This document shows positions 17,596-39,491 of a DNA stretch of 40,691 bases, piece by piece. Under the pieces are notes generated by a model. The model saw only the letters and a list, made by a program, of their open reading frames with translations, was not told the DNA's origin and did no database searches. Within the stretch, counting starts at the first letter, position 1, and each line of letters begins with the position of its first letter. This stretch comes from an uncultured Bacteroidales bacterium (lineage in GTDB: Bacteria > Bacteroidota > Bacteroidia > Bacteroidales > Paludibacteraceae): NCBI GenBank assembly GCA_902784425.1, contig CACZUS010000017.1:1-40691 (forward strand), read 5' to 3'. The translations under genes and the position numbers were made by a program.

Positions 17596-18534
17596 ATGGC
17601 AAAGATTATTGAAAGCTCATTAGAGTTGGTTGGTAATACACCACTTTTAAAACTCAACAATTATTCTAAAAAAACAGGAGTGTCAAATGCAACAATTTTG
17701 GCAAAGTTGGAATACCTGAATCCTGCTGGTTCGGTAAAAGACCGTATCGCACTTGCGATGATTGAAGATGCTGAAAAGAAAGGTATTTTGAAACCGGGTG
17801 CTACGATTATTGAACCTACTTCTGGTAATACTGGTATCGGTTTGGCTGCTGTTGCTGCTGCTAAAGGTTACAAGGCTATTTTGACCTTGCCCGACACCAT
17901 GAGTGTAGAACGTAGAAATCTCTTGAAGGCTTACGGTGCTGAAATCGTATTGACCGAGGGTGCAAAGGGAATGAAGGGAGCCATCGCCAAAGCAGATGAA
18001 CTCAATAAGGAGATCAAGGGCTCTGTTATCTTGGGTCAGTTTGTTAACCCAGCCAACCCTAAAGTTCACCGTGAAACGACAGGTCCTGAGATCTGGGATC
18101 AAACAGATGGTAAGGTAGATATCTTCGTAGCAGGTGTTGGTACCGGTGGTACATTGACTGGTGTTGGAGAGTTTCTGAAGTCTAAAAATCCTAATGTGAA
18201 GATTGTGGCTGTAGAGCCGGCTACTTCACCAGTGTTGTCAAAGGGTACTGCGGGAGCGCATAAGATTCAAGGTATCGGTGCAGGATTCGTGCCTGATACA
18301 TTAAATACTAAAATCTACGACGAAGTGATCGCTATTGAGAATGAAGATGCCTTTACAGAGGGAAGAAACTTTGCAGTAAGCGAAGGTGTCTTGGTAGGTA
18401 TTTCTTCTGGTGCAGCGTTGAAAGCTGCTTCAATATTGGCTAATCGTCCGGAGAACAAAGGAAAGAATATTGTGGTTCTTTTGCCAGATTCAGGTGACAG
18501 ATACTTGTCAACTGCTTTGTTCTCAAATAATTAA
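17596..18534 (+). CDS. cysK: Cysteine synthase, copy 2, heading the nitrogenase-like operon
   Basis: The 312-residue PLP enzyme has NPAGSVKDR with Lys48, [24 protein letters not shown] and [18 protein letters not shown], so it should be a fully active O-acetylserine sulfhydrylase. A GGGAGG ribosome-binding site precedes the ATG. It is the first gene after the operator at 17517, and the NifB-like gene follows 87 bp downstream past a hairpin. Its position suggests it fixes sulfide made or released under sulfur limitation. It is more regular in sequence than copy 3 at 32346. Confidence 0.93.
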
Positions 18535-18566
18535 TAGTTAACATTTGGACATATCTTCCGTGATGA

Positions 18567-18588
18567 CCGAAGGCGAAAAAGCCTTCGG
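18567..18588 (+). terminator. Intra-operon hairpin between cysK-2 and nifB-like gene
   Basis: CCGAAGGC and GCCTTCGG form a perfect 8-bp GC-rich stem around GAAAAA. No T-run follows (the next bases are GAAGGGGGATACATTTTC), so it looks like an attenuator or RNA-processing/stabilising hairpin that lowers downstream expression relative to cysK. Confidence 0.6.
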
Positions 18589-18621
18589 GAAGGGGGATAC
18601 ATTTTCAAAAAAAGAGTTTTT

Positions 18622-19494
18622 ATGACTGAAAATCAAGAGAAATTACGAAATAATCATCCGTGCTTTGCCAATAAACCTGGTAATCTCGGAAGAATACACC
18701 TACCAGTCAGCCCTGCGTGCAACCTTGGTTGCCGCTTCTGCAGTCGCGTGCTCAACGACACGGAGCATCGTCCGGGTGTGACGGCAAAGGTGATTACGCC
18801 AGAGGAAAGTGTAGCCATTCTGAAAAAAGCGTTGAAGATATGTCCAGACATCAAAGTAGCTGGCATCGCAGGACCTGGAGACACATTAGCGACCGATACA
18901 GCTTTGGAAACATTCCGTCTCGTGGGTAAAGAGTTCCCTCAATTGCTCAAATGTATGAGTACCAACGGATTGCTACTCGACGAGAAGGCGGACAAAGTAA
19001 TCGAGGCAAAGATTGATTCACTGACGGTCACTGTCAATGCGATCGATCCTGAAATAGAAGCTAAACTAAATAAGTTTATTATCTATCATGGTAAGAAATA
19101 CGATGCGTTGGAAGGTGCCAAGATATTAATCGAAAATCAATTGAATGGTATTCGAAAAGTGGCAGAGAGTGGTATCACCGTAAAGGTTAATACAGTATTG
19201 GTACCAAGAATCAATGGTAGTCACATCGAGACGATAGCGAAGACGGTTTCTTCGTTGGGAGCCTCCATCTATAACATCATTCCGCTGATTCCGACGTATG
19301 AACTCAAAGACGAGAAAGCTCCTTTCTGTTTCCAAATCGAAGAGGCAAGAAAGAGTGCAGAGAAGTACATCGATGTGTTCCGTCATTGCAACCGCTGTCG
19401 AGCTGATGCGGTGGGAGTGCCAGGCGTAAGTGAGTTCTCTAAAGAGGTTTATTCAGACGATTTTGTATTATCAGATACTTTCTCACATGGATGA
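18622..19494 (+). CDS. NifB-like radical SAM cofactor-assembly protein
   Basis: The 290-residue protein matches the radical SAM core of NifB, which fuses two [4Fe-4S] units and inserts carbide to make the 8Fe precursor (NifB-co). Seen directly: HPCF at residues 12-15, the SAM-cluster motif CNLGCRFC (Cys33, Cys37, Cys40), GIAGPGD (81-87), and the C-terminal CNRCRADAVG (Cys256, Cys259), which in NifB holds auxiliary cluster ligands. It lacks the fused NifX-like C-terminal domain of many NifB proteins; a separate NifX-like gene overlaps its stop by 8 bp. It therefore likely supplies an iron-sulfur-carbide cofactor for the local DK proteins, like MarB in methylthio-alkane reductase loci. Confidence 0.9.
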   Translation: MTENQEKLRNNHPCFANKPGNLGRIHLPVSPACNLGCRFCSRVLNDTEHRPGVTAKVITPEESVAILKKALKICPDIKVAGIAGPGDTLATDTALETFRLVGKEFPQLLKCMSTNGLLLDEKADKVIEAKIDSLTVTVNAIDPEIEAKLNKFIIYHGKKYDALEGAKILIENQLNGIRKVAESGITVKVNTVLVPRINGSHIETIAKTVSSLGASIYNIIPLIPTYELKDEKAPFCFQIEEARKSAEKYIDVFRHCNRCRADAVGVPGVSEFSKEVYSDDFVLSDTFSHG

Positions 19495-19852
19495 TAAACA
19501 AAAATACAATGCTTTTCGAGTAGCGGCAGCTTCAACGGATGGATACACGGTCGATACTCATTTCGGTAGAGCTACGGATTTTTACATCTACCAGTTCTTC
19601 GATGGAGAGTGGATCTATGTTGAGAAACGTACAACGCCACCAGTGTGTCAAAATGGTGGACATTCCCGAGAAGACATGGAGAAGAGAGTGGAACTCTTTT
19701 CTGATTGTCAATACATCACAGCTTCACGCATCGGAACGGGTGCAAGTGCACTGCTGACGCAAAAAGGAATCATCGCGATGGCATTGCCGGGCGACTTGAT
19801 TGAAGCTTTAAACAAAATTTATACTTATAACGAGATTCAAAATTTATTTTAA
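19487..19852 (+). CDS. NifX/NifB-C-terminal-like cofactor-binding protein 1
   Basis: The 121-residue product belongs to the dinitrogenase iron-molybdenum cofactor-binding (NifX/NifY/NifB C-terminal) fold. It shows FRVAAASTDGYTVDTHFGRATDFYIYQF, split here at its STDG and HFGRA signatures, then CQNGGHS, LFSDCQYITASRIG and a terminal strand. I set the start at the ATG overlapping the NifB-like stop, because a longer upstream reading runs inside the nifB-like gene in another frame. The overlap implies translational coupling, as if a fused NifB-NifX protein had been split. It probably carries the precursor cluster from NifB-like to DK proteins. Confidence 0.85.
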   Translation: MDDKQKYNAFRVAAASTDGYTVDTHFGRATDFYIYQFFDGEWIYVEKRTTPPVCQNGGHSREDMEKRVELFSDCQYITASRIGTGASALLTQKGIIAMALPGDLIEALNKIYTYNEIQNLF

Positions 19853-20746
<894 letters not shown>

Positions 20747-20777
20747 TTGAGAACTAAAAGGTTAAGAGTTTAGAGTT

Positions 20778-21254
20778 ATGGGGTACAGGATTGCAGTTGC
20801 CACATCGGATGGATTAAATATCGACCTGCATTTTGGGTCGGCTCAACAGTTTGAGATTTATTCTGTTGAAGGTCTTGATTTCTACAAGATAGAGACAAGA
20901 AATGTACCGGTGTCACAGGAACAACAGTATTCTTATGCAAGAAATGTTGAGGCTGGATGTGGCAATGGTTTGGGTCCAGGTGATGGTAGTGGCTGCAATT
21001 CTGGATGTAACTCGGGCTGTGGCAGTCGAAACGGCTGTGGTGGCGGAGAAAAATCGGAATCGGTGGAGTTGCTTTCTGATTGCCGCAGTGTAGTCTGCAA
21101 GAAGATAGGTCGCAACATCCTTAAACAGTTCGAGAGAAAAGCCATCTCAGTTTTTGATGTAGAATTACCTATCAAAGAAGCCTTGTCAAAGATAGTCTCT
21201 TACTACTACAAGATCGATGAAAGAAAGTTGAATTTTAAAAATCAAGAAGAGTAA
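20778..21254 (+). CDS. NifX-like protein 2 with Gly/Cys-rich insert
   Basis: The 158-residue protein has the NifX-type fold (RIAVATSDGLNIDLHFGSAQQF at the start, split here by the SDG and HFG signatures, and VELLSDCRSVVCKKIG later). Between them an insert at residues 60-90 is extremely rich in glycine and cysteine: Cys61, Cys73, Cys77, Cys81 and Cys87, with CNSGCNSGCG as core. Two more cysteines are Cys102 and Cys107. Normal NifX proteins have no such insert. It may bind an iron-sulfur cluster or metal during cofactor transfer. The gene is 31 bp after nifH-like and 9 bp before the D subunit gene, so it is tightly co-expressed. Confidence 0.85.
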   Translation: MGYRIAVATSDGLNIDLHFGSAQQFEIYSVEGLDFYKIETRNVPVSQEQQYSYARNVEAGCGNGLGPGDGSGCNSGCNSGCGSRNGCGGGEKSESVELLSDCRSVVCKKIGRNILKQFERKAISVFDVELPIKEALSKIVSYYYKIDERKLNFKNQEE

Positions 21255-21263
21255 ATTTATTAT

Positions 21264-22826
21264 ATGGCGAATAGAATCAATTTAAACATGACCACCGTCG
21301 AGAATCGCGAGTTGCGACTCGGTACGATCATCGGGTGGGATGGCTCGGCAAAGCAGCTGATCGAACAGTCTGCCTATGATGAGCGAAGCATAAAGAAACA
21401 TGGTGGCTGTAAGGGTGCCGGACAAGGTTGTAGACTTTGCGAATTGCAGAGCCCGTTGAACCAAGAGACCATGTGTTCCAATGCTATCGTACAGTGTCAG
21501 ATAGGTAACCTAACCGATTGTGTCTTAATTAACCATGCACCGATTGGTTGTAGTAGTGAGGATGCGAAGTTCAATCTTACTATGCACATGGGACTTGCAC
21601 GTCGCGGCAAACCACAACAGAATACTCTTAATATTAGCACAAACTTACAAGAAAAAGATATGGTGTTCGGTGGCGCTGCCAAGTTAAGACAGGCCATTCG
21701 TATTGCCAAAGAGCGTTATAATCCGAAAGCTATCTTCATCGCCATGGCATGTGCAACGGCTATCACGGGTGAGGATATCGACAGTGTGGCAGAAGAGTTG
21801 GAACCAGAAGTGGGTGTACCTATCATTCCATTGCACTGCGAGGGCTTCCGAAGCAAACACTGGAGTACCGGTTTCGACGTTGCTTTCCATGGTGTCTTGA
21901 GACAGATCGTTGATAAGCATCCTAAGAAGAAGCAGAAAGACCTCATCAACATCATTGCTCTTTGGGGTACTGACTGGTTTACTGATCTTTTGAAACCATT
22001 AGGACTTCGGGTAAACTACCTTTTGGATTGTGCTTCGTTCGAAGAGATTCGTCAAGCCTCCGAAGCAGTTGCCACCACTACCTTTTGTGAGACCCTTGGT
22101 GGTTACATGGGTGCAGCGTTGGAAGATCAGTTTGGTGTTCCACAAATCGACGCTCCGCAGCCTTACGGTATCAAGGGAACAGATGCTTGGTTGCGTGCCA
22201 TAGCCAAGGTGGTTGGAAAAGAAAAAGAAGTAGAAGAGTTCATTGAAAGCGAACATAAACGTATTGCTCCTAAATTGGCGGAGTATCGCGAATATTTCAA
22301 AGGAAAATATGGAATGGTGCTTACCGGTTCAGCTTACGCACATGGATTGATCAGTGTATTGGCTGAGTTGGGCATCAAAAATGAAGCAGCTCTGGTCTTC
22401 CATCACGATCCAATTTATGATGGTGCTGGTAAGAACCAGGATACGCTGAAGGAATTGGTCGAGACATACGGTGATATTCCTCACTATACAGTTAGTAAGA
22501 CTCGTGCCTTCCAGTTGCCTCAGCTCTTAAATCGAATTAAAACAGATTTCTTAATCATTCGTCACCCAGGACTTGCCTCTGTGGCTGGTCATCTCGGTGT
22601 ACCTACATTCGCTTTGGGAGACGAACACATTCCGGTCGGTTATGACGGTATCTTGCGTGTGGGTGAAATCTTGAAAGGTGTGTTGGCTCGTACGAAGTTC
22701 AACAAGGTCCTTAAACGCCACGTTCGCTTGCCTTACAACGACTGGTGGTTCAGTCAGGTCGATCCGTTCAAACTGACAAATGATAAGAATGTGTTTGAAG
22801 AAATCGAAAAGAGACTCGGCGACTAA
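21264..22826 (+). CDS. Nitrogenase-like alpha subunit (NifD-like), pair 1
   Basis: The 520-residue protein aligns with NifD in its core. Likely P-cluster ligands are Cys71, Cys96 (HAPIGCSSED) and Cys163 (MACATAITGEDID). The cofactor cysteine is Cys275 (FCETLGGYMG), equal to NifD Cys275. The second-sphere residues differ: HCEGFRSKHWSTGFD puts Trp200 and Phe204 where NifD has Gln191 and His195. The NifD His442 region reads LGDEHIPVGYDG, where His455 is the nearest histidine. An extra GCRLC motif (Cys56, Cys59) precedes the first P-cluster Cys. This fits a nitrogenase-like C-S reductase (Mar-type) better than nitrogenase. Its partner K follows after a hairpin. Confidence 0.9.
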   Translation: MANRINLNMTTVENRELRLGTIIGWDGSAKQLIEQSAYDERSIKKHGGCKGAGQGCRLCELQSPLNQETMCSNAIVQCQIGNLTDCVLINHAPIGCSSEDAKFNLTMHMGLARRGKPQQNTLNISTNLQEKDMVFGGAAKLRQAIRIAKERYNPKAIFIAMACATAITGEDIDSVAEELEPEVGVPIIPLHCEGFRSKHWSTGFDVAFHGVLRQIVDKHPKKKQKDLINIIALWGTDWFTDLLKPLGLRVNYLLDCASFEEIRQASEAVATTTFCETLGGYMGAALEDQFGVPQIDAPQPYGIKGTDAWLRAIAKVVGKEKEVEEFIESEHKRIAPKLAEYREYFKGKYGMVLTGSAYAHGLISVLAELGIKNEAALVFHHDPIYDGAGKNQDTLKELVETYGDIPHYTVSKTRAFQLPQLLNRIKTDFLIIRHPGLASVAGHLGVPTFALGDEHIPVGYDGILRVGEILKGVLARTKFNKVLKRHVRLPYNDWWFSQVDPFKLTNDKNVFEEIEKRLGD

Positions 22827-22839
22827 GTTTTATTTAACA

Positions 22840-22872
22840 GAAGAGGCATGAAAAATGGATTAGTGCCTCTTC
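22840..22872 (+). terminator. Hairpin between D1 and K1 genes
   Basis: GAAGAGGCA (22840-22848) pairs perfectly with TGCCTCTTC (22864-22872) around a 15-nt loop, followed by ATTTTCC. It lies inside an operon whose products should be equimolar, so an RNA-stability or processing role is more likely than full termination. Confidence 0.55.
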
Positions 22873-22903
22873 ATTTTCCAAAACATCAAAAAGATTCAAG
22901 TAA

Positions 22904-24253
22904 ATGAGCGAAATACAAAAGAAAAAACCTTCGGTAATATCCGATGTTAGATATGCTTGTGCGGTAGGTGCAACCAATACCGTAGTAGCCATCAAAGGAG
23001 CTGTACCTATTGCCAATTGTAGTCCTGGATGTCAGTTGAAGACAACAGCCATGTTGACGTTTGAGAATGGATTCCAAGGAAGTATTGCCGCTGGAGGTGG
23101 TAACATGCCAAGTTCAAATGCTACGGAAAACGATGTGGTCTTCGGAGGTATCAAGACACTCGACAACCTGATTAAGTCAACATTAAAGATTTATGATGGA
23201 GATTTGTTCGTAGTCCTGACGGGTTGTACAGGAGAGTTGATTGGAGATAATGTTCCTGATTTGGTTGGTAAATATCAGAAAGCAGGATATCCGATTGTCT
23301 ATGCCAATACAGCTGGATTTAAAGGAAATAATCTTTACGGTCATGAGGTCGTCGTGGATGCCATTATCGACCAGTTTGTTGGAAACTATGACGGTGAAAA
23401 GCAGAAGGGTCTTATCAACCTTTGGTTTGAAACGCCTTATTACAACCAGAATTGGAGAGGTGATTATCAAGAGCTTGCACGTATATTGCGAGGCGCTGGC
23501 TTTGATGTGAATGTTCTTTTCGGTCCTGAAAATCCAGGAGTCGAAGCTTGGAAACGAATTCCTCAGGCGCAGTTCAACTTGGTGGTTTCTCCTTGGGTGG
23601 GTGTGAAAAATGCTGAACATCTCCAAAAGAAATATGATCAGCCATTCTTGCATATCCCAGAAATTCCAGTAGGCGAAGAGGCTACGACTAAGTTCATTCG
23701 CCAAGTTGTTGAATATGCTGGAATCGATAAGAAACAGTCCGAAGAATTTATCAAACAGGAATCGAGCATTTACTACTACTACCTTGAACACTTCTCTGAG
23801 TTCTTCGCAGAGTATTGGTACGGTATGCCAAGCGAGTTTGTGGTGACGGCAGACGCATCTTATGCGCTAGCTTACTCTAAATTCTTGGCTGACCAAATCG
23901 GACTTATCCCTAAGCGAGTGATTATCACCGATAACACGCCTGCCAAATTTCGTCCTGCCATCACAGAATACTTCAAAAACAATATTTCTGAAGGCGTGAG
24001 CATCGATGTTGATTTTGAAGAAGATGGTTACGAAGTGGAGAAACTCATCGAGAGTGTTGAATTCACGGCTGGTAAACCATTGATTTTAGGAACTTCATGG
24101 GAGTTGACTCTCGCCAACAAGAAAGGCGCTTTGTTCTTTGAGATTTCAACGCCATCGTCAGAGACACTCATCGTCAACCGCTCACATATCGGTTACAAAG
24201 GTGCATTGCAGTTCTTGGAAAGAATTTATAGTGCTTCCGTAGGAGGAAAATAA
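22904..24253 (+). CDS. Nitrogenase-like beta subunit (NifK-like), pair 1
   Basis: The 449-residue subunit has the three expected beta P-cluster cysteines: Cys19 (RYACAVGATN), Cys43 (NCSPGCQLK) and Cys108 (LTGCTGELIGDN). An additional Cys39 lies next to Cys43. The VVFGGIKTLDNLI segment matches the NifK FGGQQNM region. It lacks the long N-terminal extension of molybdenum-nitrogenase NifK, as is usual in simpler nitrogenase-like enzymes. It would form an alpha2-beta2 complex with the D protein at 21264 and accept electrons from the H protein. A strong hairpin follows the stop. Confidence 0.9.
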   Translation: MSEIQKKKPSVISDVRYACAVGATNTVVAIKGAVPIANCSPGCQLKTTAMLTFENGFQGSIAAGGGNMPSSNATENDVVFGGIKTLDNLIKSTLKIYDGDLFVVLTGCTGELIGDNVPDLVGKYQKAGYPIVYANTAGFKGNNLYGHEVVVDAIIDQFVGNYDGEKQKGLINLWFETPYYNQNWRGDYQELARILRGAGFDVNVLFGPENPGVEAWKRIPQAQFNLVVSPWVGVKNAEHLQKKYDQPFLHIPEIPVGEEATTKFIRQVVEYAGIDKKQSEEFIKQESSIYYYYLEHFSEFFAEYWYGMPSEFVVTADASYALAYSKFLADQIGLIPKRVIITDNTPAKFRPAITEYFKNNISEGVSIDVDFEEDGYEVEKLIESVEFTAGKPLILGTSWELTLANKKGALFFEISTPSSETLIVNRSHIGYKGALQFLERIYSASVGGK

Positions 24254-24672: not shown

Positions 24673-25650
24673 ATGGCAATTTACAATAATGTATTAGACT
24701 TAATTGGCAACACGCCCATCGTTCAACTCTCAAGACTGAACACGGGCAAGAGTTCCCTTTTCCTGAAACTGGAGAACCAGAATCCAGGCGGTAGCATAAA
24801 GGATCGAACTGGCTTGAATATGATTGAACAAGCGGAGAGACGTGGAACGATTCACCCTGGACAACTCATTGTGGAGGCTACGGCTGGAAACACTGGATTG
24901 GGTCTCGCATTGGCAAGCAGAATGAAGGGATACAAGCTCTTATTGGTGATCCCGGACAAGATGAGCGTCGAGAAGATTAATCACCTTCGTGCATTGGGCG
25001 TGGAGACGGTCATTACTCGTAGCGATGTTGGTAAGGGACATCCTGAGTATTATCAAGATTTAGCTGCTCGAATTGCTAACGAGAGGGGAGGCTACTACAT
25101 TAATCAATTTGAGAATCCTGATAACCCTGAGACCCATGTATTGACTACGGGTCCTGAGATTTGGGAACAATTGGAGCATAAAGTAGATGCCGTTGTTGTG
25201 GGTGTTGGTTCTGCTGGAACACTGACAGGTTTGACCAAATTCTTCAAGAAGGTAAGTCCGCAGACCGAGTTCATCCTTGCCGATCCGAAAGGTTCCGTTT
25301 TGGCGGACTACATCAACCTAAAGAAACTACGTAATGATGCAGGTTCATGGTTCGTTGAAGGTATCGGAGAGGATTACATCCCTAAATTGGCGGATTTTGA
25401 TTTGGTGAAGAAAGCCTACGAAGTGACCGATGAAGAGAGTTTCACCGCCGCCCGTCTTTTGCTGAGAGACGAAGGCATCTTGGCTGGCTCATCCACAGGT
25501 ACGCTCTTAAGTGCTGCTCTTCGTTATTGCCAGGAACAAACGGAGCCAAAACGTGTGCTTACGTTAGCATGTGATAGCGGTAATAAATACCTTTCTAAAA
25601 TGTTTAATGACAATTGGTTGAAGGAGAAAAACCTAACTCTCAACCTTTAA
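24673..25650 (+). CDS. Cystathionine beta-synthase (PLP core only)
   Basis: The 325-residue protein belongs to the CysK/CBS fold but has CBS hallmarks: NPGGSIKDR with PLP Lys43, EATAGNTGLGLA, FVEGIGEDYIPKLAD, DEESFTAARLLLRDEGILAGSS-type helix start, and CDSGNKYLSKMFNDNW near the C-terminus, as in eukaryotic and bacterial CBS. No regulatory CBS-domain pair is attached. It would join homocysteine and serine into cystathionine. Cystathionine gamma-lyase follows 39 bp downstream, so the two form a complete reverse transsulfuration route from homocysteine to cysteine. A CysK-type side activity cannot be excluded. Confidence 0.85.
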   Translation: MAIYNNVLDLIGNTPIVQLSRLNTGKSSLFLKLENQNPGGSIKDRTGLNMIEQAERRGTIHPGQLIVEATAGNTGLGLALASRMKGYKLLLVIPDKMSVEKINHLRALGVETVITRSDVGKGHPEYYQDLAARIANERGGYYINQFENPDNPETHVLTTGPEIWEQLEHKVDAVVVGVGSAGTLTGLTKFFKKVSPQTEFILADPKGSVLADYINLKKLRNDAGSWFVEGIGEDYIPKLADFDLVKKAYEVTDEESFTAARLLLRDEGILAGSSTGTLLSAALRYCQEQTEPKRVLTLACDSGNKYLSKMFNDNWLKEKNLTLNL

Positions 25651-30212: not shown

Positions 30213-30230
30213 TAGTTCAATTCCTTTTAT

Positions 30231-30264
30231 AGATGCTCGATCAAACAGGATCGGGCATCTATTT
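30231..30264 (+). terminator. Terminator-like hairpin between metQ and metN
   Basis: AGATGCTCGATC (30231-30242) pairs with GATCGGGCATCT (30249-30260) with one mismatch-like G-T, then ATTTGTATAA. It likely causes partial termination so that the periplasmic binding protein is made in excess of the ATPase and permease. Confidence 0.7.
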
Positions 30265-30293
30265 GTATAACTCATAAAAAGTAAGAAGTATAG

Positions 30294-31310: not shown

Positions 31311-31959
31311 TTATTCAGAACTGGTTGGTAACTTGTTGCCAGCGTTTGGTGAAACATTGGAGATGTGTGGAATCGCGCTTGCTTTGGCGATTTTGTTAGG
31401 TGTACCGCTTGGCGTGTTGTCTTATCTTACGAGCGACCGCAATATATGTCAGAATAAACTTATCAATCTATTGGTCAGTTTTATACTGAATGTGATTATG
31501 TCAACCCCGTTTGTGATTTTGTTGGTGTTGTTGCTGCCTTTCACAAAGTTGGTGGTGGGCACCTCCATAGGACCTGAGGCCGCATCGGTGCCGTTAGGCA
31601 TTGTCGCCATTGCTTTCTATGCACGTTTGGTGGAGGGCAATTTGCATGGTGTGGACAAAGGGGTGATAGAGGCATCGATAGCCATGGGAGCCACATGGTT
31701 CAAGATTGTCACCAATGTCTTGTTGCCAGGTGCATTCAGTGGCATGATACGAGGATTGACCGTTCTGGCGGTCACGCTGGTGGGCTATTCGGCTATGGCT
31801 GGTATTGTGGGTGGCGGTGGCGTCGGTGACCTTGCTATTCGGTTCGGCTACTATCGTTACCAGACCGATGTTATGATCATCACGGTGCTTTTGCTTATTG
31901 GATTGGTACAGATTATTCAGACACTGGGAGAAAAGGCTTCTCAAAAAACGCAAAAATAG
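31297..31959 (+). CDS. metI: Methionine ABC importer permease MetI
   Basis: The 220-residue inner-membrane permease has about five transmembrane helices and the coupling-loop motif in VIEASIAMGATWFKIVTNVLLPGA, split here at EASIAMGA and the following LLPGA. TLEMCGIALALAILLGVPLG and AGIVGGGGVGDLAIRFGYYRY are typical MetI segments. It works with MetN and MetQ in import of methionine or similar thioethers. A terminator follows at 32011, closing the transcript that may begin at 17561. Confidence 0.95.
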   Translation: MNETNYSELVGNLLPAFGETLEMCGIALALAILLGVPLGVLSYLTSDRNICQNKLINLLVSFILNVIMSTPFVILLVLLLPFTKLVVGTSIGPEAASVPLGIVAIAFYARLVEGNLHGVDKGVIEASIAMGATWFKIVTNVLLPGAFSGMIRGLTVLAVTLVGYSAMAGIVGGGGVGDLAIRFGYYRYQTDVMIITVLLLIGLVQIIQTLGEKASQKTQK

Positions 31960-32212: not shown

Positions 32213-32272
32213 ATTTATAAATGTATTATAATCAATGCAATACAAAAAAATCTTTTTATTTTATTGAATATA

Positions 32273-32315
32273 ACCTACCAAAGTAGTATGTAAATAAAAA
32301 ATTGTTTTATATTTG
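32273..32315 (+). promoter_or_regulatory. cysK-3 promoter with proximal operator
   Basis: ACCTACCAAAGTAGTATGT (32273-32291) precedes TATATTTG (32308-32315) by 16 bp. The -7 box lies in an 18-nt block identical to the cysK-2 promoter. A TTG codon inside this -7 box is in frame with the gene but cannot be the start, because transcription begins downstream of it. Confidence 0.75.
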
Positions 32316-32345: not shown

Positions 32346-33332
32346 ATGGCAAACATTCATCAATCAATCGCAGAATTAGTAGGGAAGACCCCACTTCTTC
32401 AGCTTAATGGGTATAGTAAAGCAAAAAACCTTAAGGCTAACATTATAGCAAAATTGGAGTACTTCAATCCCAATCAATCGGTCAAGGACAGAATAGCCCT
32501 TGCCATGGTGGAGACGGCAGAGAAAGAAGGCAAGTTAAAGAAAGGAGACACCATAATCGAACTTACTAGTGGTAACACGGGTGTAGGTCTTGCTGCTATA
32601 GCAGCAGCTAAAGGTTATCCTTTCAGAGTCTATATTCAAGATCAGGTGTCGAAAGAACGTTTTCAAGTAATTCATGCTTTCGGAGGGAAAACGGTTAAAC
32701 TTTCTGAAGTGCCTGAAATAGTTGAAAGTTTTGAAAAAAATGGTCCTGATTTCATTGAGTGTGTAAAAGCGTTGGAACGTCATGTTGCAGGAGAAAAGAA
32801 TCTGTGGTTCGCTGATCAGACCCGCAACCCAGCCAATCCTAATGTCCATTTTCATACAACGGGTCCTGAGATTTGGAACGACATCGACGGAAAGGTGGAT
32901 GCCTTTGTGGCTTGCGTAGGTACGGGCGGTACACTTTCAGGCGTGGGAAATTTCTTGAAATCGAAGAATCCGAATGTAAAGATCTTCGGTGTACAGCCTA
33001 CAGAAGATTCTTTCCAATCACCTGAACGTCCTGACCAAGAGGAGATCACGGGTGTGCATCCGTTCGAGAACACCAAGGAGGAGTATATTCCAGCCAACCT
33101 CGACCGTAAGGTATATGATGGTTATTTTGAGGTACACACGGATCAAGCATACGAGGCAGCTCGTCTTTTGGCGAAAAAGGATGGTGTGTTGGTGGGCGCT
33201 TCTTCTGGTGCTGCCCTCTATGCCGCTACTCAACTGGCTCAGCGTGAGGAGTTCAAAGGAAAGAATATCGTTGTCCTTCTGCCAGACACTGGATTGAGAT
33301 ACTTGTCAACGCATTTATTTCAAGCAGAATAA
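32346..33332 (+). CDS. Divergent cysteine synthase-family enzyme, copy 3
   Basis: The 328-residue PLP enzyme starts at the ATG preceded by AAAAAGGAGG. It keeps the PLP lysine Lys47 (NPNQSVKDR), ELTSGNTGVGLA and the phosphate loop GTGGTLSGVG. It differs where the other two CysK copies have [10 protein letters not shown]: here ITGVHPFENTKEEYIPANLD. That segment looks more like the CysM-type sequence around GIRRWP...EYLP. It also has an extended, charged region before it (FQSPERPDQEE). It may use another sulfur donor or amino-acid acceptor. Shared promoter DNA with cysK-2 indicates duplication followed by divergence. A terminator follows. Confidence 0.85.
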   Translation: MANIHQSIAELVGKTPLLQLNGYSKAKNLKANIIAKLEYFNPNQSVKDRIALAMVETAEKEGKLKKGDTIIELTSGNTGVGLAAIAAAKGYPFRVYIQDQVSKERFQVIHAFGGKTVKLSEVPEIVESFEKNGPDFIECVKALERHVAGEKNLWFADQTRNPANPNVHFHTTGPEIWNDIDGKVDAFVACVGTGGTLSGVGNFLKSKNPNVKIFGVQPTEDSFQSPERPDQEEITGVHPFENTKEEYIPANLDRKVYDGYFEVHTDQAYEAARLLAKKDGVLVGASSGAALYAATQLAQREEFKGKNIVVLLPDTGLRYLSTHLFQAE

Positions 33333-33343
33333 TATATCTTTTT

Positions 33344-33380: not shown

Positions 33381-33398
33381 TTTTTATTTGAGGAGAAA

Positions 33399-34601
33399 AT
33401 GAATTTTATTTTTATATCACCAAATTTTCCATATACCTATTGGAATTTTTGCGACAGACTTAAACAAAATGGTGTTAATGTATTAGGCATTGGCGACTCT
33501 TCGTATGATGCGCTGAACATAAATCTGAAGAATTCACTGACCGAATACTATAAGGTGGATTCCTTACAGGACTATGACCAGGTGTTTAAGGCTGTGGCTT
33601 TTTTCTCGTTCAAATATGGCAAAATCGATTGGATTGAATCCAACAATGAGTTTTGGCTAGAACAGGATGCTCGTCTTCGTACTGATTTTAATATCAATAC
33701 AGGCATAAAATCTGATAAAATTGCCAACTACAAAAGTAAATATCAGATGAAGGAGTTTTATCGTAAGGCAGGTGTGCCTGTGGCACGCATCCAGCATGTC
33801 ACGACGATAAAGAAAGCTCAGGAATTTGTAAAACTTACAGGGTATCCGGTCTTCGCAAAACCTGAGATAGGGGTTGGCGCCACTGATACGTTCAAGATTA
33901 CGAATGATGAGGAGTTACAAGATTTTTTCAATCGAAAGCCCGATTTCCCATACGTCATTGAAGAGTTCGTGACGGGAGACATCTGCTCTTATGATGCTAT
34001 TGTGGATAATGAGGGCAATCCTCTCTTCGAGAGTATGACAGTTTGGCCTCCTTCTGTAGCGGACATCGTCAAATATCAATTGGATTTGATGTACTATACA
34101 GCCTCTGATTTGCCAGCGGGACTTCGTCGATTGGGTCGTGCGGCTGTGAAGGCTTTCGAGGTGCAGAACCGTTTCGTGCATTTGGAGTTCTTCCGACTAT
34201 CTGCAGACAAACCTGGACTTGGCAAAAAGGGTAGTTTCGTTGGATTGGAGGTCAATATGCGACCTGCAGGGGGGTACACTCCAGATATGATGAATTGGGC
34301 TCACAGCACGGATGTTTATCAGATATGGGCTGATATGGTGACATCCAACAAACGTCTTTTACCAGACAGCAACCAACATCAATATTGTGTCTTTGCTTCA
34401 AGACGTGATATCCATGATTATGTGCATAGCCATGAGGAGATTATAGAACGTTACGGAGACAAGATGCTCATGTGCGAACGTATGCCCGACATGATGGCTC
34501 CGCAGATGGGTAATCAGATGTACACAGCGTATGCAGCAGATTTGAAAAAAACTTTGGAGTTTATTAAATTTGTTCACCAACAAAATAACTTATCTATTTA
34601 G
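33399..34601 (+). CDS. ATP-grasp carboxylate-amine/thiol ligase family protein
   Basis: The 400-residue protein has the ATP-grasp fold: an N-terminal alpha/beta domain (FIFISPNFPYTYWNF), then KYQMKEFYRKAGVPVARIQ, the ATP-binding lid GYPVFAKPEIGVGATDTF, YVIEEFVTGDICSYDAIVD, and the metal-binding LEVNMRPAGGYTPDMMNWA. Such enzymes activate a carboxylate as acylphosphate and join it to an amine or thiol. The substrate is unknown. Its stop is 2 bp before the start of an esterase gene, a tight pair. Lying between cysK-3 and the second DK operon, it may make or modify a sulfur-containing peptide or conjugate; that is inference. Expression probably needs read-through of the terminator at 33344 or an unseen promoter. 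Confidence 0.82.
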   Translation: MNFIFISPNFPYTYWNFCDRLKQNGVNVLGIGDSSYDALNINLKNSLTEYYKVDSLQDYDQVFKAVAFFSFKYGKIDWIESNNEFWLEQDARLRTDFNINTGIKSDKIANYKSKYQMKEFYRKAGVPVARIQHVTTIKKAQEFVKLTGYPVFAKPEIGVGATDTFKITNDEELQDFFNRKPDFPYVIEEFVTGDICSYDAIVDNEGNPLFESMTVWPPSVADIVKYQLDLMYYTASDLPAGLRRLGRAAVKAFEVQNRFVHLEFFRLSADKPGLGKKGSFVGLEVNMRPAGGYTPDMMNWAHSTDVYQIWADMVTSNKRLLPDSNQHQYCVFASRRDIHDYVHSHEEIIERYGDKMLMCERMPDMMAPQMGNQMYTAYAADLKKTLEFIKFVHQQNNLSI

Positions 34602-34603
34602 GA

Positions 34604-35347
34604 ATGGAGATTAATTATTATAAAGAATATAGCCATTATCTTGGAAGAGATATGGAATTTAAAACCTATGGAAGACCGGGTGGTAAATTGGCCTTCGCCT
34701 TCGCACCTCAGAATGGAAGATTCTATGATTTCGAGAGCTTTGGGATGGTGAATGAGTTGGAACCTTGGATTAACTCAGGGAAACTGATGTTGGTCACTCC
34801 TGACAGTATCGATTTGGAGACTTGGAGCGATGAGAATGGTAATCCTCGCTATCGAATTGAACAACAGGAGCGCTGGTTCAAATATATCACCGAGGAACTT
34901 TTTGCCCGTGCTGTGCAACTTAATAATTCGTTTGGCTACAAAGCTTTGGTGACAGGCTGTAGCATGGGAGGCGTGCATAGTGGTAATTTCTTCTTTCGCC
35001 GCCCAGATCTGTTTGATGTGATGATTTCACTCAGCGGACTCTTCAATGCCCAGTATTTTTTTCATGACTATTTCGATGATTTGGTCTATAATAATTCTCC
35101 CGTTCACTTCTTGCGTAATCTTCCGCCTGATCATTACTATAACCAGCTCTACCGAGAAAGCCGCATTATCTGTTGCGTGGGACAGGGTGCATGGGAAGAT
35201 GAATTGTTGGCTGGTACTCGCGAGTTGGATACCGTCCTTGCAGAGAAAGGTATTCCTGCCTGGTTCGATTATTGGGGAACCGATTCTGCTCATGATTGGG
35301 CATGGTGGCGTAAACAGATTGTATATTTCATGGATAAGGTCTTGTAG
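34604..35347 (+). CDS. Esterase-like alpha/beta hydrolase
   Basis: The 247-residue protein has an alpha/beta-hydrolase nucleophile elbow GCSMGGVHSG with Ser120, an acidic candidate in GAWEDELLAG and the likely catalytic His in TDSAHDWAWWRKQ near residue 234, an arrangement like the esterase D/putative esterase family. It probably hydrolyses an ester, thioester or amide of a small molecule. It starts 2 bp after the ATP-grasp gene, so ligase and hydrolase likely act on the same compound. Esterase D relatives cleave S-formylglutathione, which makes a thioester substrate plausible here. Confidence 0.8.
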   Translation: MEINYYKEYSHYLGRDMEFKTYGRPGGKLAFAFAPQNGRFYDFESFGMVNELEPWINSGKLMLVTPDSIDLETWSDENGNPRYRIEQQERWFKYITEELFARAVQLNNSFGYKALVTGCSMGGVHSGNFFFRRPDLFDVMISLSGLFNAQYFFHDYFDDLVYNNSPVHFLRNLPPDHYYNQLYRESRIICCVGQGAWEDELLAGTRELDTVLAEKGIPAWFDYWGTDSAHDWAWWRKQIVYFMDKVL

Positions 35348-35453
35348 AAGTATTATATAGATGACTTTTGGGTGAATTAATTTCTTAAAGGTTATTTTAT
35401 AACTGATTGATATATATTGCATTATAAAAAATAATACATAATTTATTAAAATA

Positions 35454-35497
35454 ACCTATTAAAATGGTAGGTTGTAGTGTTTTTTGTATTATCTTTG
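35454..35497 (+). promoter_or_regulatory. Promoter/operator of the second nitrogenase-like operon
   Basis: ACCTATTAAAATGGTAGGT (35454-35472) ends 17 bp upstream of the -7 box TATCTTTG (35490-35497), matching the arrangement at metY, cysK-2 and cysK-3. It places the second DK pair and the C-S lyase in the same regulon. The leader to the start at 35529 is about 25 nt. Confidence 0.78.
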
Positions 35498-35528
35498 CAT
35501 CATATAACAAGAAAAATAACGTAATACT

Positions 35529-36995
35529 ATGACTATAAACTTAAACAACTCCAATGTGGCGGTCCGTGAGAACCGTATCGGTTCTATCACGGGGTACATT
35601 GGTTCTTTAAAAGATTTGGCGGAGAAGTCGGAATGTGGCACGCTGAAAGGATGCGCACGATGTTTCTCTCAATCCAGTACTTGCCTCTCGCTCTGTGGCT
35701 TGAGTCAGTTGGCGGGTATTCGTGATGTGGCGGTCATTCACCACGGTCCTTCTGGCTGTTCGGTAACTAGTTCCAACAGCTACTATATGTCGAAGGTGAT
35801 GGCGAAGAAACGTGGTGTCACTTCCGATACGGTGTATGTCGGTACGGATATGAACGAGAAAGATACCATCTTTGGTTCCACGGAAAGTCTTCGCAAGATC
35901 ATTTTGGAGACCAACCGTCGTTATCATCCAAAAGCGATTTTTGTCTCTAGTTCTTGTGCTACGGGTATCATCGGTGAGGATATTGACAGCATCGTGGATG
36001 ATGTGAAGTCAGAGATCGAAGTGCCTGTCGTGGCTGTCCACTGTGAAGGCTTCAAATCGAAGATATGGGCGACAGGTTTTGATATATCCGATCATGCGGT
36101 GATGCAGTCTATCGTACAGAAGCCTCGTCCGGGTGTTAAGACCAACAAGATCAACTTCAAGAACTTCTTTGAGTCGGCTCGTCCTGAGATCATCGAGATG
36201 TTCAAACAATTCGACCTCGACCCTGTCTTTCTTTATTGTAACTCAACGGTAGAGGAACTTTCACACTTGTCGGAGAGTTTGGCCACTACTTGTATCTGTG
36301 GTACGTTGGGCAATTACTTGGGCAACGCCTTGGAAGAGAAATATGGGGTGCCATACGTGCGCAGTATCAATCAATGTGGTATCACAGGCTTTGAGACATG
36401 GTTGCGCGAGATCGGAAAGGTTACTCACCGAGAGGATAAAATAGAAGCTTATATTCAAGAACAACGAGCCATCTACCTTCCTAAGATCGAGGAGGTGAAG
36501 AAGGAATTGATAGGTTTGACGGCTGTCTTGGGCATGGGACCTGGTTATACCTTCGAAGTATCCAGAGTGCTGAATGAACTCGGCATCAAGGTGGTATGGG
36601 CATTGGCTTGGCATTATGACAAGAAATATGAGAATGGGGACGTTCCACCGTCTATGAAGTATCTGTTGGATAACAACATAGATTTTGAAACATCGGTGGC
36701 CGACCAACAGAACTATGAGGTGATGAACATCCTCAATAAGTATAAGCCAGACATGTACCTTTCTCGTCACCCAGGCTCCACCGTTTGGGCAATCAAGAAT
36801 GGAACACCAGCTATTTACGTGGCAGATGAGTACATGATTTTTGGATATAAACACACGTTGGAGTTTGCGAACACAATTCTCGATACGATTCGAAATCGCA
36901 GTTTTGAAGCGAATTTGGCCAAACGTTCCAAACTTCCTTATACGCAATGGTGGTATGAACAAAAAGTTGATAAATTTTTTGAGGAGGCAAAATAA
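35529..36995 (+). CDS. Nitrogenase-like alpha subunit (NifD-like), pair 2
   Basis: The 488-residue protein is a paralogue of the D subunit at 21264. Likely P-cluster ligands are Cys52, Cys77 (HGPSGCSVT) and Cys143 (SSCATGIIGEDID). The cofactor cysteine is Cys257 in CICGTLGNYLG. As in pair 1, HCEGFKSKIWATGFD has Trp180 and Phe184 in place of NifD Gln191 and His195. Where pair 1 has DEH (His455), this protein has DEY (Tyr435), so the pocket differs. An extra GCARC motif (Cys42, Cys45) parallels pair 1. Its stop overlaps the K2 start by one base. It has no own H or B gene. Confidence 0.9.
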   Translation: MTINLNNSNVAVRENRIGSITGYIGSLKDLAEKSECGTLKGCARCFSQSSTCLSLCGLSQLAGIRDVAVIHHGPSGCSVTSSNSYYMSKVMAKKRGVTSDTVYVGTDMNEKDTIFGSTESLRKIILETNRRYHPKAIFVSSSCATGIIGEDIDSIVDDVKSEIEVPVVAVHCEGFKSKIWATGFDISDHAVMQSIVQKPRPGVKTNKINFKNFFESARPEIIEMFKQFDLDPVFLYCNSTVEELSHLSESLATTCICGTLGNYLGNALEEKYGVPYVRSINQCGITGFETWLREIGKVTHREDKIEAYIQEQRAIYLPKIEEVKKELIGLTAVLGMGPGYTFEVSRVLNELGIKVVWALAWHYDKKYENGDVPPSMKYLLDNNIDFETSVADQQNYEVMNILNKYKPDMYLSRHPGSTVWAIKNGTPAIYVADEYMIFGYKHTLEFANTILDTIRNRSFEANLAKRSKLPYTQWWYEQKVDKFFEEAK

Positions 36996-38293
36996 TGGCA
37001 AAGATACTTGACAAACAACGATATAAATGTGCTTTGGCGGCAATGCAGACCGTTCAGGCGATAGACCGTGCTTGCCCCGTGCTCCATTCAGGTCCGGGCT
37101 GTGCACAAAAACTTTCTGATACTACGGGTAGTTCGGGGTATCTCTCCCCACAGATCTTCCCTTGTACATCCATCAACGAGAAGGATGTGGTCTTTGGTGG
37201 TGTGAAGAAACTGGAGACGACCATCGCCAATGCGCTGAAGGTGATAGATGCAGACCTCTATGTGGTCTTGACTGGCTGTATTCCTGAGATCGTAGGTGAT
37301 GATGCCGCTGAGGTGGTGTCTAAATTCGCAGATGCTGACAAGCCTGTGGTTTTCGCTCCTACGGCTGGTTTCAAAGGCAATAACTATAAAGGCCATGAGC
37401 AGGTGGTGGAGGCGATTGTCACCCAATACCTCAAGAAGTCGGACAAGAAACAGAAAGGCCTGGTGAATATATGGGCGGATGTGCCCTACCAAGACCTCTT
37501 CTGGCTCGGTAATATTCGTGAGTTAGAGAACCTTTTGAGGGAGATCGGCTTGACCCCTAACACGATCTTTGGTTACCAACGTGGCATTGAGAATATTAAT
37601 AAGATACCTGAAGCAGAGTTAAATCTGCTGGTTTCTCCATGGGTGGGTCTGAAGAACATGAAGACGATGGAGAAACGATTGGGTATTCCATACCTACACT
37701 ACCCAGTGTTACCGATTGGTGCCACCGAGACAAGCAAGTTCTTGCGTGAGGTGGGTAAATTCGCCCATGTAGATGAGACAAAGGTAGAAGAGGTTATCAA
37801 GAAACATGAGGATTATTTCTATTACCTGATTTCCCGCTATGCAGATCTGTTCTTGGAGAACCGTGTGATCAACAAGCAATTTTCTGTGGTGGCAGATGCT
37901 CAATACGCATTAGGAATCACAAAGTTCTTGGTGAATGATTTAGGATTAGTTCCTGCCAAGCAATTCATCACGGATGATACGCCTAAAGAGTATCAGGAAC
38001 TAATCTCAGCAGAGTTCCAAAACCTCAACTATGGCATAAAGGCAGATGTGGCTTTCGAAACCGATGGCTTCAAAATCCATGAGGAGATAAAAAGTCATGA
38101 CTACCATGGCTATCCATTAGTGTTGGGTGGTTACTACGAAAAGGAGTTGACAGAGAAACTCAAAGGTAACTTCTTGAACATCTCATGGCCTGTGCTGGAC
38201 AAGGTGGTCTTCGATGATTTCTATGTAGGCTACACGGGTGGTATCCGTTTGATTGAAGATATTTACACGGTGGCAGTACAACGCTTCAATTGA
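36995..38293 (+). CDS. Nitrogenase-like beta subunit (NifK-like), pair 2
   Basis: The 432-residue protein has beta P-cluster cysteine candidates Cys12 (RYKCALAAMQ), Cys36 (HSGPGCAQKL) and Cys95 (LTGCIPEIVGDD), plus DVVFGGVKKLETTI. Like K1 it lacks an N-terminal extension. It overlaps the D2 stop by one base (TAATGG), so the subunits are translationally coupled, unlike pair 1 where a hairpin separates them. It would form a second alpha2-beta2 reductase that depends on the single H protein at 19898. The C-S lyase gene follows 22 bp downstream. Confidence 0.9.
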   Translation: MAKILDKQRYKCALAAMQTVQAIDRACPVLHSGPGCAQKLSDTTGSSGYLSPQIFPCTSINEKDVVFGGVKKLETTIANALKVIDADLYVVLTGCIPEIVGDDAAEVVSKFADADKPVVFAPTAGFKGNNYKGHEQVVEAIVTQYLKKSDKKQKGLVNIWADVPYQDLFWLGNIRELENLLREIGLTPNTIFGYQRGIENINKIPEAELNLLVSPWVGLKNMKTMEKRLGIPYLHYPVLPIGATETSKFLREVGKFAHVDETKVEEVIKKHEDYFYYLISRYADLFLENRVINKQFSVVADAQYALGITKFLVNDLGLVPAKQFITDDTPKEYQELISAEFQNLNYGIKADVAFETDGFKIHEEIKSHDYHGYPLVLGGYYEKELTEKLKGNFLNISWPVLDKVVFDDFYVGYTGGIRLIEDIYTVAVQRFN

Positions 38294-38315
38294 TGTATGC
38301 AAATAAGTATTATAT

Positions 38316-39491
38316 ATGAGTGAAAAAAACCTAGACTTTGATACCGTCATTGAACGTCGCAACACAATGTCTATAAAGTATGACTTTGCGGAGCGATTAG
38401 GTATGCCAGCTGATGTCTTGCCACTTTGGATAGCCGATATGGATTTCAAGACATCAAGCTATGTGCAGGAAGCCTTGATTGAGGCTGTCAATCATGGAAT
38501 TTTCGGGTACAGTGAGGCATTATCGGATTATAATAATACAGTGAGGGAGTATTTCCAGAAAAAATACAATTATGAATTTGTCGAAAGAGAATTGATAAAG
38601 ACACCCGGAGTTGTATTCGCGATAGCTACAGCCGTCAGAGCTTTGACGATAGAAGGAGATGCGGTTTTAATTCAAAGTCCGGTTTATTATCCTTTTTCAG
38701 AAGTTGTTACATACAATGGGCGAAAAGTGGTTGATAACACATTGATATATAATGAAAAAGAGAATAGATATTTTATTGATTTTGAAGATTTTGAACAGAA
38801 GATCATCGATAATCATGTGAAACTGTTTTTGTTATGTAACCCGCATAATCCAGTGTCAAGAGTATGGAGTAGGGAAGAGTTGTTGAGGCTTGGTGAGATT
38901 TGTTTGAAACACAAAGTACGTGTTTTGAGTGATGAGATACATGCTGATTTCACATTTGTTGGGAAACATCATATATTTGCAAGCCTCAGTCCAGAACTGG
39001 AAAAGATCACCATCACCTTTACCTCACCCTCTAAGACGTTTAATCTTGCAGGATTGCAGTTGGCGAATATCATCATCAAGGATCCGACCATCAGACGGAA
39101 ATTCATCCATGAATATAAAGTTTCAGGATACAGCGAAGTAAGCGTCATGGGGTATGTCAGCACCATTGCCGCTTACAAGAATGGTGATGTATGGTTTAAC
39201 GCTGTATTTGATTATATAAAGAAGAACGTTGAATACGTGAAGCAGTTTGTGGATTCAAATCTTCCTGGCGTTAAAATGATTAATCATGAGGCCACCTACC
39301 TTGTTTGGCTGGATTTCCGAAAATTAGGGTTGTCGGTGGATGAACTTGACAATAGAATAATCCATAAATCTAAGTTGTGGCTTGACAGTGGGAAAATATT
39401 TGGAAGAACAGGAGAAGGCTTTCAACGCATTAATGTTGCCTGTCCACGAAAGACATTGGAAGAGGCGATGAATAGGTTGAAGCTATTGTGA
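38316..39491 (+). CDS. PatB/MalY-type PLP C-S beta-lyase
   Basis: The 391-residue fold-type I aminotransferase-like enzyme matches the PatB/MalY cystathionine beta-lyase group: FDTVIERRNTMSIKYD near the N-terminus, LPLWIADMDFKT, LCNPHNPVSRVWSREEL, LSDEIHADF (Asp near residue 206 contacts PLP) and the PLP lysine Lys240 in TSPSKTFNLAGLQ. These enzymes cleave cystathionine or cysteine S-conjugates into a thiol, pyruvate and ammonia. It lies in the D2K2 operon, so it may release a thiol that D2K2 then reduces, or process a product of that reaction. The MITE-like hairpin begins 49 bp after its stop. Confidence 0.9.
   Translation: MSEKNLDFDTVIERRNTMSIKYDFAERLGMPADVLPLWIADMDFKTSSYVQEALIEAVNHGIFGYSEALSDYNNTVREYFQKKYNYEFVERELIKTPGVVFAIATAVRALTIEGDAVLIQSPVYYPFSEVVTYNGRKVVDNTLIYNEKENRYFIDFEDFEQKIIDNHVKLFLLCNPHNPVSRVWSREELLRLGEICLKHKVRVLSDEIHADFTFVGKHHIFASLSPELEKITITFTSPSKTFNLAGLQLANIIIKDPTIRRKFIHEYKVSGYSEVSVMGYVSTIAAYKNGDVWFNAVFDYIKKNVEYVKQFVDSNLPGVKMINHEATYLVWLDFRKLGLSVDELDNRIIHKSKLWLDSGKIFGRTGEGFQRINVACPRKTLEEAMNRLKLL

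Follow-up and report, generated by a model that had tools for sequence, protein, structure and literature searches.

What does a nitrogenase-like gene cluster do when two NifD/NifK-like pairs, one NifH-type Fe protein and one NifB-type protein lie among genes of cysteine and methionine metabolism? This arrangement is found in an uncultured rumen-type Bacteroidales bacterium (Paludibacteraceae; GCA_902784425.1) on contig CACZUS010000017.1, of which the whole 40,691-nt stretch (the window) was analyzed. We regard it, with a probability of about 0.75, as a sulfur-supply system in which two C-S reductases with different substrates, D1K1 and D2K2, use one NifH and one NifB. This reading is built from sequence: from the gene content, the clades and ligands of the catalytic subunits, the single H and B genes, and the operator-like sites in front of both operons. 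The gene calls of the window were scored with NCBIfam and Pfam profiles. The NifB-like gene, two NifX-like genes, NifH-like gene and two D/K pairs amid sulfur genes, all named in an original prediction for this DNA, were recovered at their predicted places with scores far beyond chance. The nitrogenase-like genes are located at:

18622..19494, + strand: NifB-type radical S-adenosylmethionine (SAM) protein without a NifX domain (TIGR01290 257.3, under the cut-off of 343.65)
19430..19852, + strand: NifX-like protein 1 (PF02579 62.5)
19898..20746, + strand: NifH-type Fe protein (TIGR01287 462.1, cut-off 394.35)
20778..21254, + strand: NifX-like protein 2 (PF02579 48.2)
21264..22826, + strand: D1, MarD-clade catalytic subunit (604 bits to 9fmg_A; ligand and pocket residues)
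22904..24253, + strand: K1, MarK-type partner (487 bits to MarK 9d9u_C)
35529..36995, + strand: D2, catalytic subunit of a separate clade (308 bits to MarD, 119.7 bits to the best NifD)
36995..38293, + strand: K2, partner of D2 (364 bits to MarK)

The NifB-like protein aligns to positions 7–277 of the 441 positions of TIGR01290 only, and the NifX part is formed by separate genes.

By clade and residues, D1K1 is a relative of methylthio-alkane reductase (Mar). Among solved structures, D1 scores 604 bits to Rhodospirillum rubrum MarD, with which it shares 55% identity, and 140 bits to the next protein; K1 scores 487 bits to MarK and 63 bits to the next protein. In the tree of 49 D rows, D1 and R. 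rubrum MarD form a clade with a support of 100/100, and NifD and NifE are located beyond 100/100 branches. MarD contains three P-cluster cysteines (Cys66, Cys91 and Cys158), the cluster ligands Cys270 and His429, the hallmark residue Arg428, and His194, Trp195 and His375 around the belt sulfur (PMC12552129). All of these residues are kept in the four D1 rows, and three matching P-cluster cysteines are present in both K1 and K2. The reductase that accompanies D1K1 is of the NifH type rather than the MarH type.

D2K2 resembles Mar in its ligands but forms, as judged from the same comparisons, a separate clade, and we do not file it as Mar. D2 scores 308 bits to MarD and 120 bits to the next protein, and K2 scores 364 bits to MarK and 87 bits to the next protein; the identities are 35% between D2 and MarD, 35% between D1 and D2, and 40% between K1 and K2. 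In the D tree, the D2 clade (100/99) is joined to the Mar clade at 99/98, and the K tree returns the same groups. Neither pair falls inside the nitrogenases, with NifD, NifE, NifK and NifN beyond 100/100 branches, which answers the nitrogenase part of a phylogenetic check set beforehand. The chlorophyll and F430 enzymes were compared by PDB and NCBIfam searches and not in the D and K trees, and they score far below Mar for the window D and K proteins. The P-cluster cysteines, Cys270 and Arg428-His429 are kept in D2 (79/79 gut-type rows), and the cluster ligands and Arg428-His429 likewise occur in both Treponema second-type rows and all five Bacteroidales-type D2 rows. The His194 site is occupied by Ile in 78 of the 79 gut-type rows and by Val in one; all other checked MarD residues are kept, and the residue following His375 is Tyr in 78/79 rows. 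Because D2 has no His194, its substrate may be quite different. At the sites of Trp195, Phe199 and Arg428, both D1 and D2 have Trp, Phe and Arg, compared with Gln, His and Gly in three of three NifD rows (NifD Gln191 and His195). The AlphaFold model of D2 (pLDDT 78.1, with a poor N-terminus) finds the Mar complex as its first structural match (TMq 0.82) and the C. pasteurianum nitrogenase as its fourth (0.66). The idea of a Mar-related sulfur system thus holds for the locus but must be narrowed for its parts, since only D1K1 belongs to the Mar clade and D2K2 stands apart with a changed pocket. The two pairs likely serve two substrate ranges.

Further arrangements of such genes were observed elsewhere. 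A third clade, D´K´, adjoins D2K2 in some gut loci (L045, L075, L110 and others). D´ keeps the P-cluster cysteines and Cys270 and, as aligned, is without Trp195, His375 and the Arg428-His429 loop (16/16 rows); D´ and K´ are fused in one 910-residue frame in the Ruminococcus-type genome G616 (L165 1357). Genome G038 (L025 5-11986) carries three tandem D2-like genes and one K2-like gene followed by three MetQ genes, MetN and MetI, such that the MetQ substrate-binding proteins are as many as the D subunits; one D frame contains one TAA stop as aligned. The same genome additionally encodes a D gene that is 73% identical to R. rubrum MarD (L115 7009-9908).

The two pairs appear to depend on the same H and B proteins. 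Genome-wide, PF00148 finds four genes, D1, K1, D2 and K2, all of them in the window, and no NifE or NifN was found in this search. PF00142 gives a single NifH hit of 432 bits, apart from two short matches (28 and 21 bits), and the NifB profile matches the window locus only. The earlier claims of two catalytic pairs with one H and one B, and of missing NifE/NifN, are therefore borne out. The genome (3.32 Mb) is 95.76% complete in 170 contigs, so a gene elsewhere may be missing; both pairs must share the single H and B unless the absent 4% hides others. By identity and tree, the shared reductase is of the NifH type: its identity is 79.6% with C. pasteurianum NifH, 67% with the NifH of 10zn and 50.6% with MarH, and it is placed among NifH in a group (99/97) with H proteins from gut D2 loci, apart from a 100/100 clade in which MarH is joined by the H proteins of G038, G183 and G051. 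The NifB tree, which holds neither R. rubrum MarB nor the NifB of a true nif cluster, divides the loci as the H tree does; the window B groups with the B of gut D2 loci and shares 40.7–41.3% identity with the B proteins from three MarH-type loci. Both trees split the loci in this way, and each kind of catalytic gene, D2-type or Mar-type, is hence found with NifH-type as well as MarH-type H. That a single H serves the two window pairs is best supported by the occurrence of the same H type with D1 alone and with D2 alone. The D1 type with a NifH-type H and without D2 was found in G004 and G019 by the H tree and in G030 by an H identity of 83% alone, the H of its locus (L029) being outside the tree owing to an overlapping antisense frame. 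D2 with the same H type is the only D/K pair in 9 of 24 D2-bearing genomes, in which the PF00148 search yielded 30 classified loci; matches without a locus, such as one small pair in G604 and another in G607, were excluded. Exactly one NifH above 400 bits is present in 24/24 of these genomes, on the D2 contig in 23 and within approximately 3 kb in 22; it lies 8 kb away in G611 and on another contig, beside a third-type pair, in G602. A second, weaker NifH occurs in G604 and G607.

The remaining features of the locus comprise sulfur genes, accessory genes and operator-like sites:

14249..14674, − strand: Rrf2-family regulator (IscR/CymR-like), candidate sulfur regulator (TIGR00738 121.2, cut-off 73.3; under the IscR and CymR equivalog cut-offs)
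14768..15700, − strand: CysK cysteine synthase, further copy (TIGR01139 450.2, cut-off 350.95)
15759..17051, − strand: MetY, O-acetylhomoserine sulfhydrylase (TIGR01326 645.8, cut-off 495.1)
17132..17152, + strand: operator-like palindrome between metY and cysK1 (2 mismatches to AACCTACYANNTTGGTAGGTT)
17516..17536, − strand: second operator-like site, 5´ of cysK1 (2 mismatches to AACCTACYANNTTGGTAGGTT)
17596..18534, + strand: cysK1 (TIGR01139 445.5, cut-off 350.95)
24673..25650, + strand: CBS-like pyridoxal-phosphate enzyme (TIGR01137 343, under the cut-off of 510.25)
25690..26847, + strand: cystathionine gamma-synthase/lyase-like protein (CGL/CGS; PRK07811 502.9, cut-off 513)
26885..27733, + strand: LCM-fold SAM methyltransferase (PF04072 69.5)
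27953..29290, + strand: unnamed protein, earlier labeled "porin"; precedes MetQNI in related loci too
29337..31959, + strand: metQ, metN and metI transporter genes (family profiles)
32272..32292, − strand: third operator-like site, 5´ of cysK2 (2 mismatches to AACCTACYANNTTGGTAGGTT)
32346..33332, + strand: cysK2, divergent CysK paralogue (TIGR01136 328.6, under 344.15)
33399..34601, + strand: ATP-grasp protein, accessory (family profiles)
34604..35347, + strand: esterase, accessory (family profiles)
35453..35473, + strand: fourth operator-like site, 5´ of D2 (2 mismatches to AACCTACYANNTTGGTAGGTT)
38316..39491, + strand: PatB-type C-S lyase (TIGR04350 446.7, cut-off 340)

All genes named earlier are present, but the label "porin" has no family match behind it: neither NCBIfam nor Pfam gave a match at E 0.001 for the protein at 27953..29290. 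The list now extends to metY, the further cysK and the Rrf2 regulator, which stand left of cysK1 in the opposite direction of transcription, and to the methyltransferase, the ATP-grasp protein and the esterase. The last two were found in L032 and L044 only among 13 Bacteroidota D2 loci, several of which are short. The cysK2 frame was called from 32313, and its sequence makes a start at 32346 more likely. The cysK2 product differs from that of cysK1 at several stretches, for example NPNQS versus NPAGS, and may therefore take another acceptor or sulfur donor. The LCM-fold methyltransferase adjoins Mar-type genes in two quite different loci (26885-27733 in the window; 1526-2347 in L028, by a Mar-type HDK) and might make methylthio substrates from thiols. 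In other Paludibacteraceae loci, ThiF-like and DsrE-like genes occur in or near the MetQNI-cysK2-D2 stretch (L033 1121-1603, L035 7176-7976). A promoter and terminator scan of the window was not used: 14 terminator-like sites against 14.5 expected correspond to chance, and the 52 promoter-like sites against 40.4 expected (sd 4.9) follow the sigma-70 consensus, which is not that of Bacteroidetes.

The sulfur neighborhood recurs around D2 in other genomes. The gut D2 counts refer to 64 of 67 non-Bacteroidota loci, L071, L072 and L081 having been dropped for want of an intact D2 frame. K follows D2 in 61 of the 63 loci with sufficient sequence. Directly 5´ of D2 stands a cysK-type gene in 54/61, with H in this place in six of the other seven; upstream of D2, H is present in 55/56 and NifB in 50/54. 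For 39 long D2 stretches the counts were 38 for cysK types, 22 for CGL/MetY types, 21 for the C-S lyase and 13 for SsuA-like genes. The corresponding counts in 32 control stretches of D2-bearing genomes (at least 19 kb, out of 40) were 1, 0, 0 and 0, the family queries being drawn from the window and D2 loci and thus favoring the D2 side. Family models additionally identify NifS and MetY (over cut-off), NifU and Rrf2 proteins beside D2, together with LysR regulators (with no equivalog cut-off reached) and a CysE-like protein under cut-off. MetY, which we take from the original prediction to be the methanethiol-capturing enzyme of R. rubrum, adjoins the window system (15759..17051).

A palindrome may connect the two operons. 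It was first spotted by eye between metY and cysK1 and then searched in the window, where it matches at four places with up to three mismatches (0.82 expected; 0/100 shuffles reach four). Two of these lie between metY and cysK1, one before cysK2 and one before D2. With up to three mismatches allowed, the completed palindrome AACCTACYANNTTGGTAGGTT occupies seven places in the genome (3.32 Mb), four of which are the sites from which it was built. All three independent places precede Cys/Met genes: one a gene of the MetE type, one another metY, and one a CysK-ThiS-ThiF/MoeB-like series of genes close to an Rrf2 gene. In G003 and G002 the locus has sites in corresponding positions, and G004 has them at metY/cysK1. 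No copy at up to five mismatches was found within 200 bases of cysK2 in the 12 Bacteroidota loci L033-L044. That the Rrf2 regulator is the protein acting on the palindrome is a guess.

Relatives of D2 were collected by a genome-collection scan, and of the best 80 among at least 538 stretches, 13 belong to Bacteroidota according to their record titles. The other 67, at 82–90% identity, come mostly from Lachnospiraceae and further Clostridia and in some cases from Treponema and Spirochaetes. In both the D and the K tree, window D2 and K2 are nested among Clostridia, and D2K2 was thus probably acquired from gut Clostridia. The distribution of D2 is patchy. It is present in 20/299 genomes of the Lachnospira multipara family at E up to 1e-150 and, at 96% or more, in 16 of 199 other genomes among the relatives of the window, all 16 of which have a D1-type match (one partial). 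The D1 type without D2 occurs in G004, G019, G030, G080 and G093. Query A2 exceeds 500 bits in the own genome only among 395 sampled Bacteroidota genomes (own included), and the next best matches reach 278 bits. They belong to another family of the phylum (f97, L122-L144), whose D-like protein is without most ligands in the five rows tested, with two of the three P-cluster cysteines missing. The Treponema saccharophilum plasmid pTS2 carries a 61% relative together with a gene annotated as nifH and another D/K pair; among the best 30 of 249 records in the plasmid search, it is followed by Chlorohelix (41%) and by nif-type genes at no more than 27%.

The substrates, products and activity of each pair, the cluster identity and the regulation may be pictured as follows. 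One NifB would make the [Fe8S9C] cluster, which the NifX-like proteins would carry, and one NifH-type Fe protein would feed electrons to both D1K1 and D2K2 for ATP-driven C-S reduction. D1K1 would cleave small methylthio-alkanes to methanethiol, which the neighboring MetY could build into methionine. D2K2, whose pocket differs, would be the other C-S reductase and would probably act on a compound imported by MetQNI; the sulfur product of D2K2 would be handled by cysK2 and the C-S lyase. The common operator would switch both on together with the Cys/Met genes.

Several points weigh against this scheme. We know of no Mar-type enzyme that has been shown to work with NifH, and the window H is not of the MarH type by tree and identity. 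D2 is without His194, one of the three residues around the MarD belt sulfur. The join of D2 to Mar drops to 88/84 when 11 rows, long-branched ones included, are removed, with the clades themselves persisting, and the K tree does not settle which group is nearest to which. A backwards control pattern is about as frequent as the palindrome in its own genome (10 rows against 11 for AACCTACYANNTTGGTAGGTT) and has more rows in 12/12 related genomes, so the case for the operator rests on placement and not on number; no copy of AACCTACYANNTTGGTAGGTT was found in 5 of the 12 related genomes. With copies missing in many relatives, the operator would be young or fast-changing. Finally, N2 fixation has been reported for Endomicrobium proavitum and Heliophilum, whose D/K are of group IV and which have no NifEN (PMC9147875).

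The last point also speaks for reading D2K2, or both pairs, as an unconventional nitrogenase of the E. proavitum type (NfaHDK) that fixes N2 without NifEN. In this classification, Mar is group IV-C and NfaDK, with reported 15N2 uptake, is group IV-A (PMC9147875). The type has been termed a functional nitrogenase (PMC11257099), Igai et al. found no grounds for ruling out fixation by gut Clostridiales that carry such a NifD (PMC4995403), and the window H is, as in the Mo, V and Fe nitrogenases, of the NifH type. D2, however, shares the Arg428-His429 anchoring with Mar, for which tests showed no N2 reduction (PMC12552129), and Trp and Phe occupy the D2 sites at which the NifD rows carry Gln and His. 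NfaH groups with MarH (PMC9147875), whereas the window H groups with NifH. D2 may belong to the NfaD clade, the trees being without an NfaD sequence. Given the residues, the NifE and NifN that were not found genome-wide, the sulfur neighbors and the placement of the operator-like sites, a true nitrogenase is disfavored, and we consider the E. proavitum-type reading improbable. It is more improbable still that one pair is a NifEN-like scaffold maturing the cluster for the other, a role proposed for linked nitrogenase-like pairs in Firmicutes (PMC3464626). Both pairs keep the ligands of the buried cluster, and we rejected this explanation because each pair occurs without the other, the D1 type in the five genomes named above and D2 in the nine of 24.

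A different division of labor, in which D2K2 acts on a sulfonate of the isethionate or taurine type and releases sulfite, seems unlikely but deserves some weight. SsuA/TauC-like transporter genes, as best matches under curated cut-offs, are present in 14 of the 38 gut D2 loci that have full flanks, but the neighbor in the window is MetQNI, whose known ligands are amino acids. A precedent exists in IsrBHDK of Rhodobacter capsulatus, a nitrogenase-like isethionate enzyme; like the window system, it combines a NifH/D/K-like enzyme for sulfur acquisition with a radical SAM protein and a transporter (PMC11423573). According to the same source, IsrD is without most cluster ligands, having one P-cluster cysteine only and no counterpart of Cys275 or His442, and IsrB groups apart from NifB and MarB. 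D1 and D2 both have all three P-cluster cysteines and Cys270, and identity with Isr was rejected on these ligands.

Compared with MarBHDK of R. rubrum (9fmg, 9d9u), D1K1 is alike in clade, identity (55%), checked P-cluster and [Fe8S9C] ligands and pocket residues, and in having MetY nearby. The window differs in its NifH-type reductase, its second pair without His194 and its two NifX-like proteins, and it adds several cysK genes and CBS, CGL and MetQNI genes, this comparison being one with the Mar proteins and not with the R. rubrum locus. NfaHDK of E. proavitum and NflHDK of Heliophilum fasciatum are likewise without NifEN, and in Heliophilum a single H, of the MarH type, accompanies five D/K-like pairs (PMC9147875). 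The window is set apart from NfaHDK by its H type and its sulfur context, the placement of NfaD lying outside this comparison. Heliobacteria are already known to carry several D/K-like pairs next to a single H (PMC9147875), and Firmicutes to carry linked multiple D/K-like pairs (PMC3464626), so the dual arrangement as such is not new. The statement that no dual system had been described in Bacteroidetes is accordingly qualified: none was found in the literature searched, and neither was an account of Mar-type D/K with NifH or in Bacteroidetes, in a search that was not exhaustive. In 2012, a cysteine synthase had already been noticed next to nitrogenase-like genes (PMC3464626), and MarHDK-like genes near methyltransferase clusters have been noted as well (PMC10418091).

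The sulfur-supply reading bears on gut nifH surveys. In human faeces, Cluster III nifH sequences were found whose identity to the NifH proteins of Lachnospira multipara, Butyrivibrio and Lachnospiraceae 3-1 is 97–98%; the Cluster III "Clostridiales" operational taxonomic units (OTUs) are OTU-08 and OTU-34 (Igai et al., 2016; PMC4995403). Klebsiella and Clostridiales were named as candidate fixers, and 15N2 uptake by faeces was measured (PMC4995403). In that study, a FeMoco histidine that other members of the clade keep was missing from the NifD proteins of L. multipara ATCC 19207, Ruminococcaceae AE2021 and P. bryantii, and E. proavitum was cited as a ground not to exclude fixation by gut Clostridiales with such a NifD. 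In contrast to the reading of these nifH genes as those of candidate N2 fixers, the NifH of L. multipara LB2003 (L079) and Lachnospiraceae 3-1 (L107) adjoins D2K2, and each of the two genomes (G608 and G614) has one NifH and two PF00148 genes, no other D/K being found there. The window H is 91% identical to the H of L079 and 95% identical to that of L107; the link to the survey runs through reported identities and not through the OTU sequences themselves. Because clade members keep the histidine and E. proavitum provides a precedent, N2 fixation in the gut is not disproved by these data.

On balance, we lean toward the view that NifH was recruited to drive two Mar-type C-S reductases, that a NifH/NifB/D2K2 cassette has spread among gut Clostridia, Treponema and Bacteroidales, and that the Cluster III nifH of the Lachnospira/Lachnospiraceae 3-1 kind is an organosulfur-scavenging gene rather than a sign of N2 fixation. 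Pseudo-nifH is known as nifH without nifD or nifK (PMC8597730); here D/K genes accompany NifH, and such loci could pass a loose nifDK check. If this view is true, gut nifH surveys count sulfur scavengers as nitrogen fixers, and "genuine NifH" no longer equals "nitrogenase". The locus would offer a testable case of one Fe protein for two catalytic proteins with different substrates. It would place an anaerobic route for organic sulfur in rumen and gut bacteria, and bacteria of this kind could release methanethiol, methane or other hydrocarbons from dietary thioethers.

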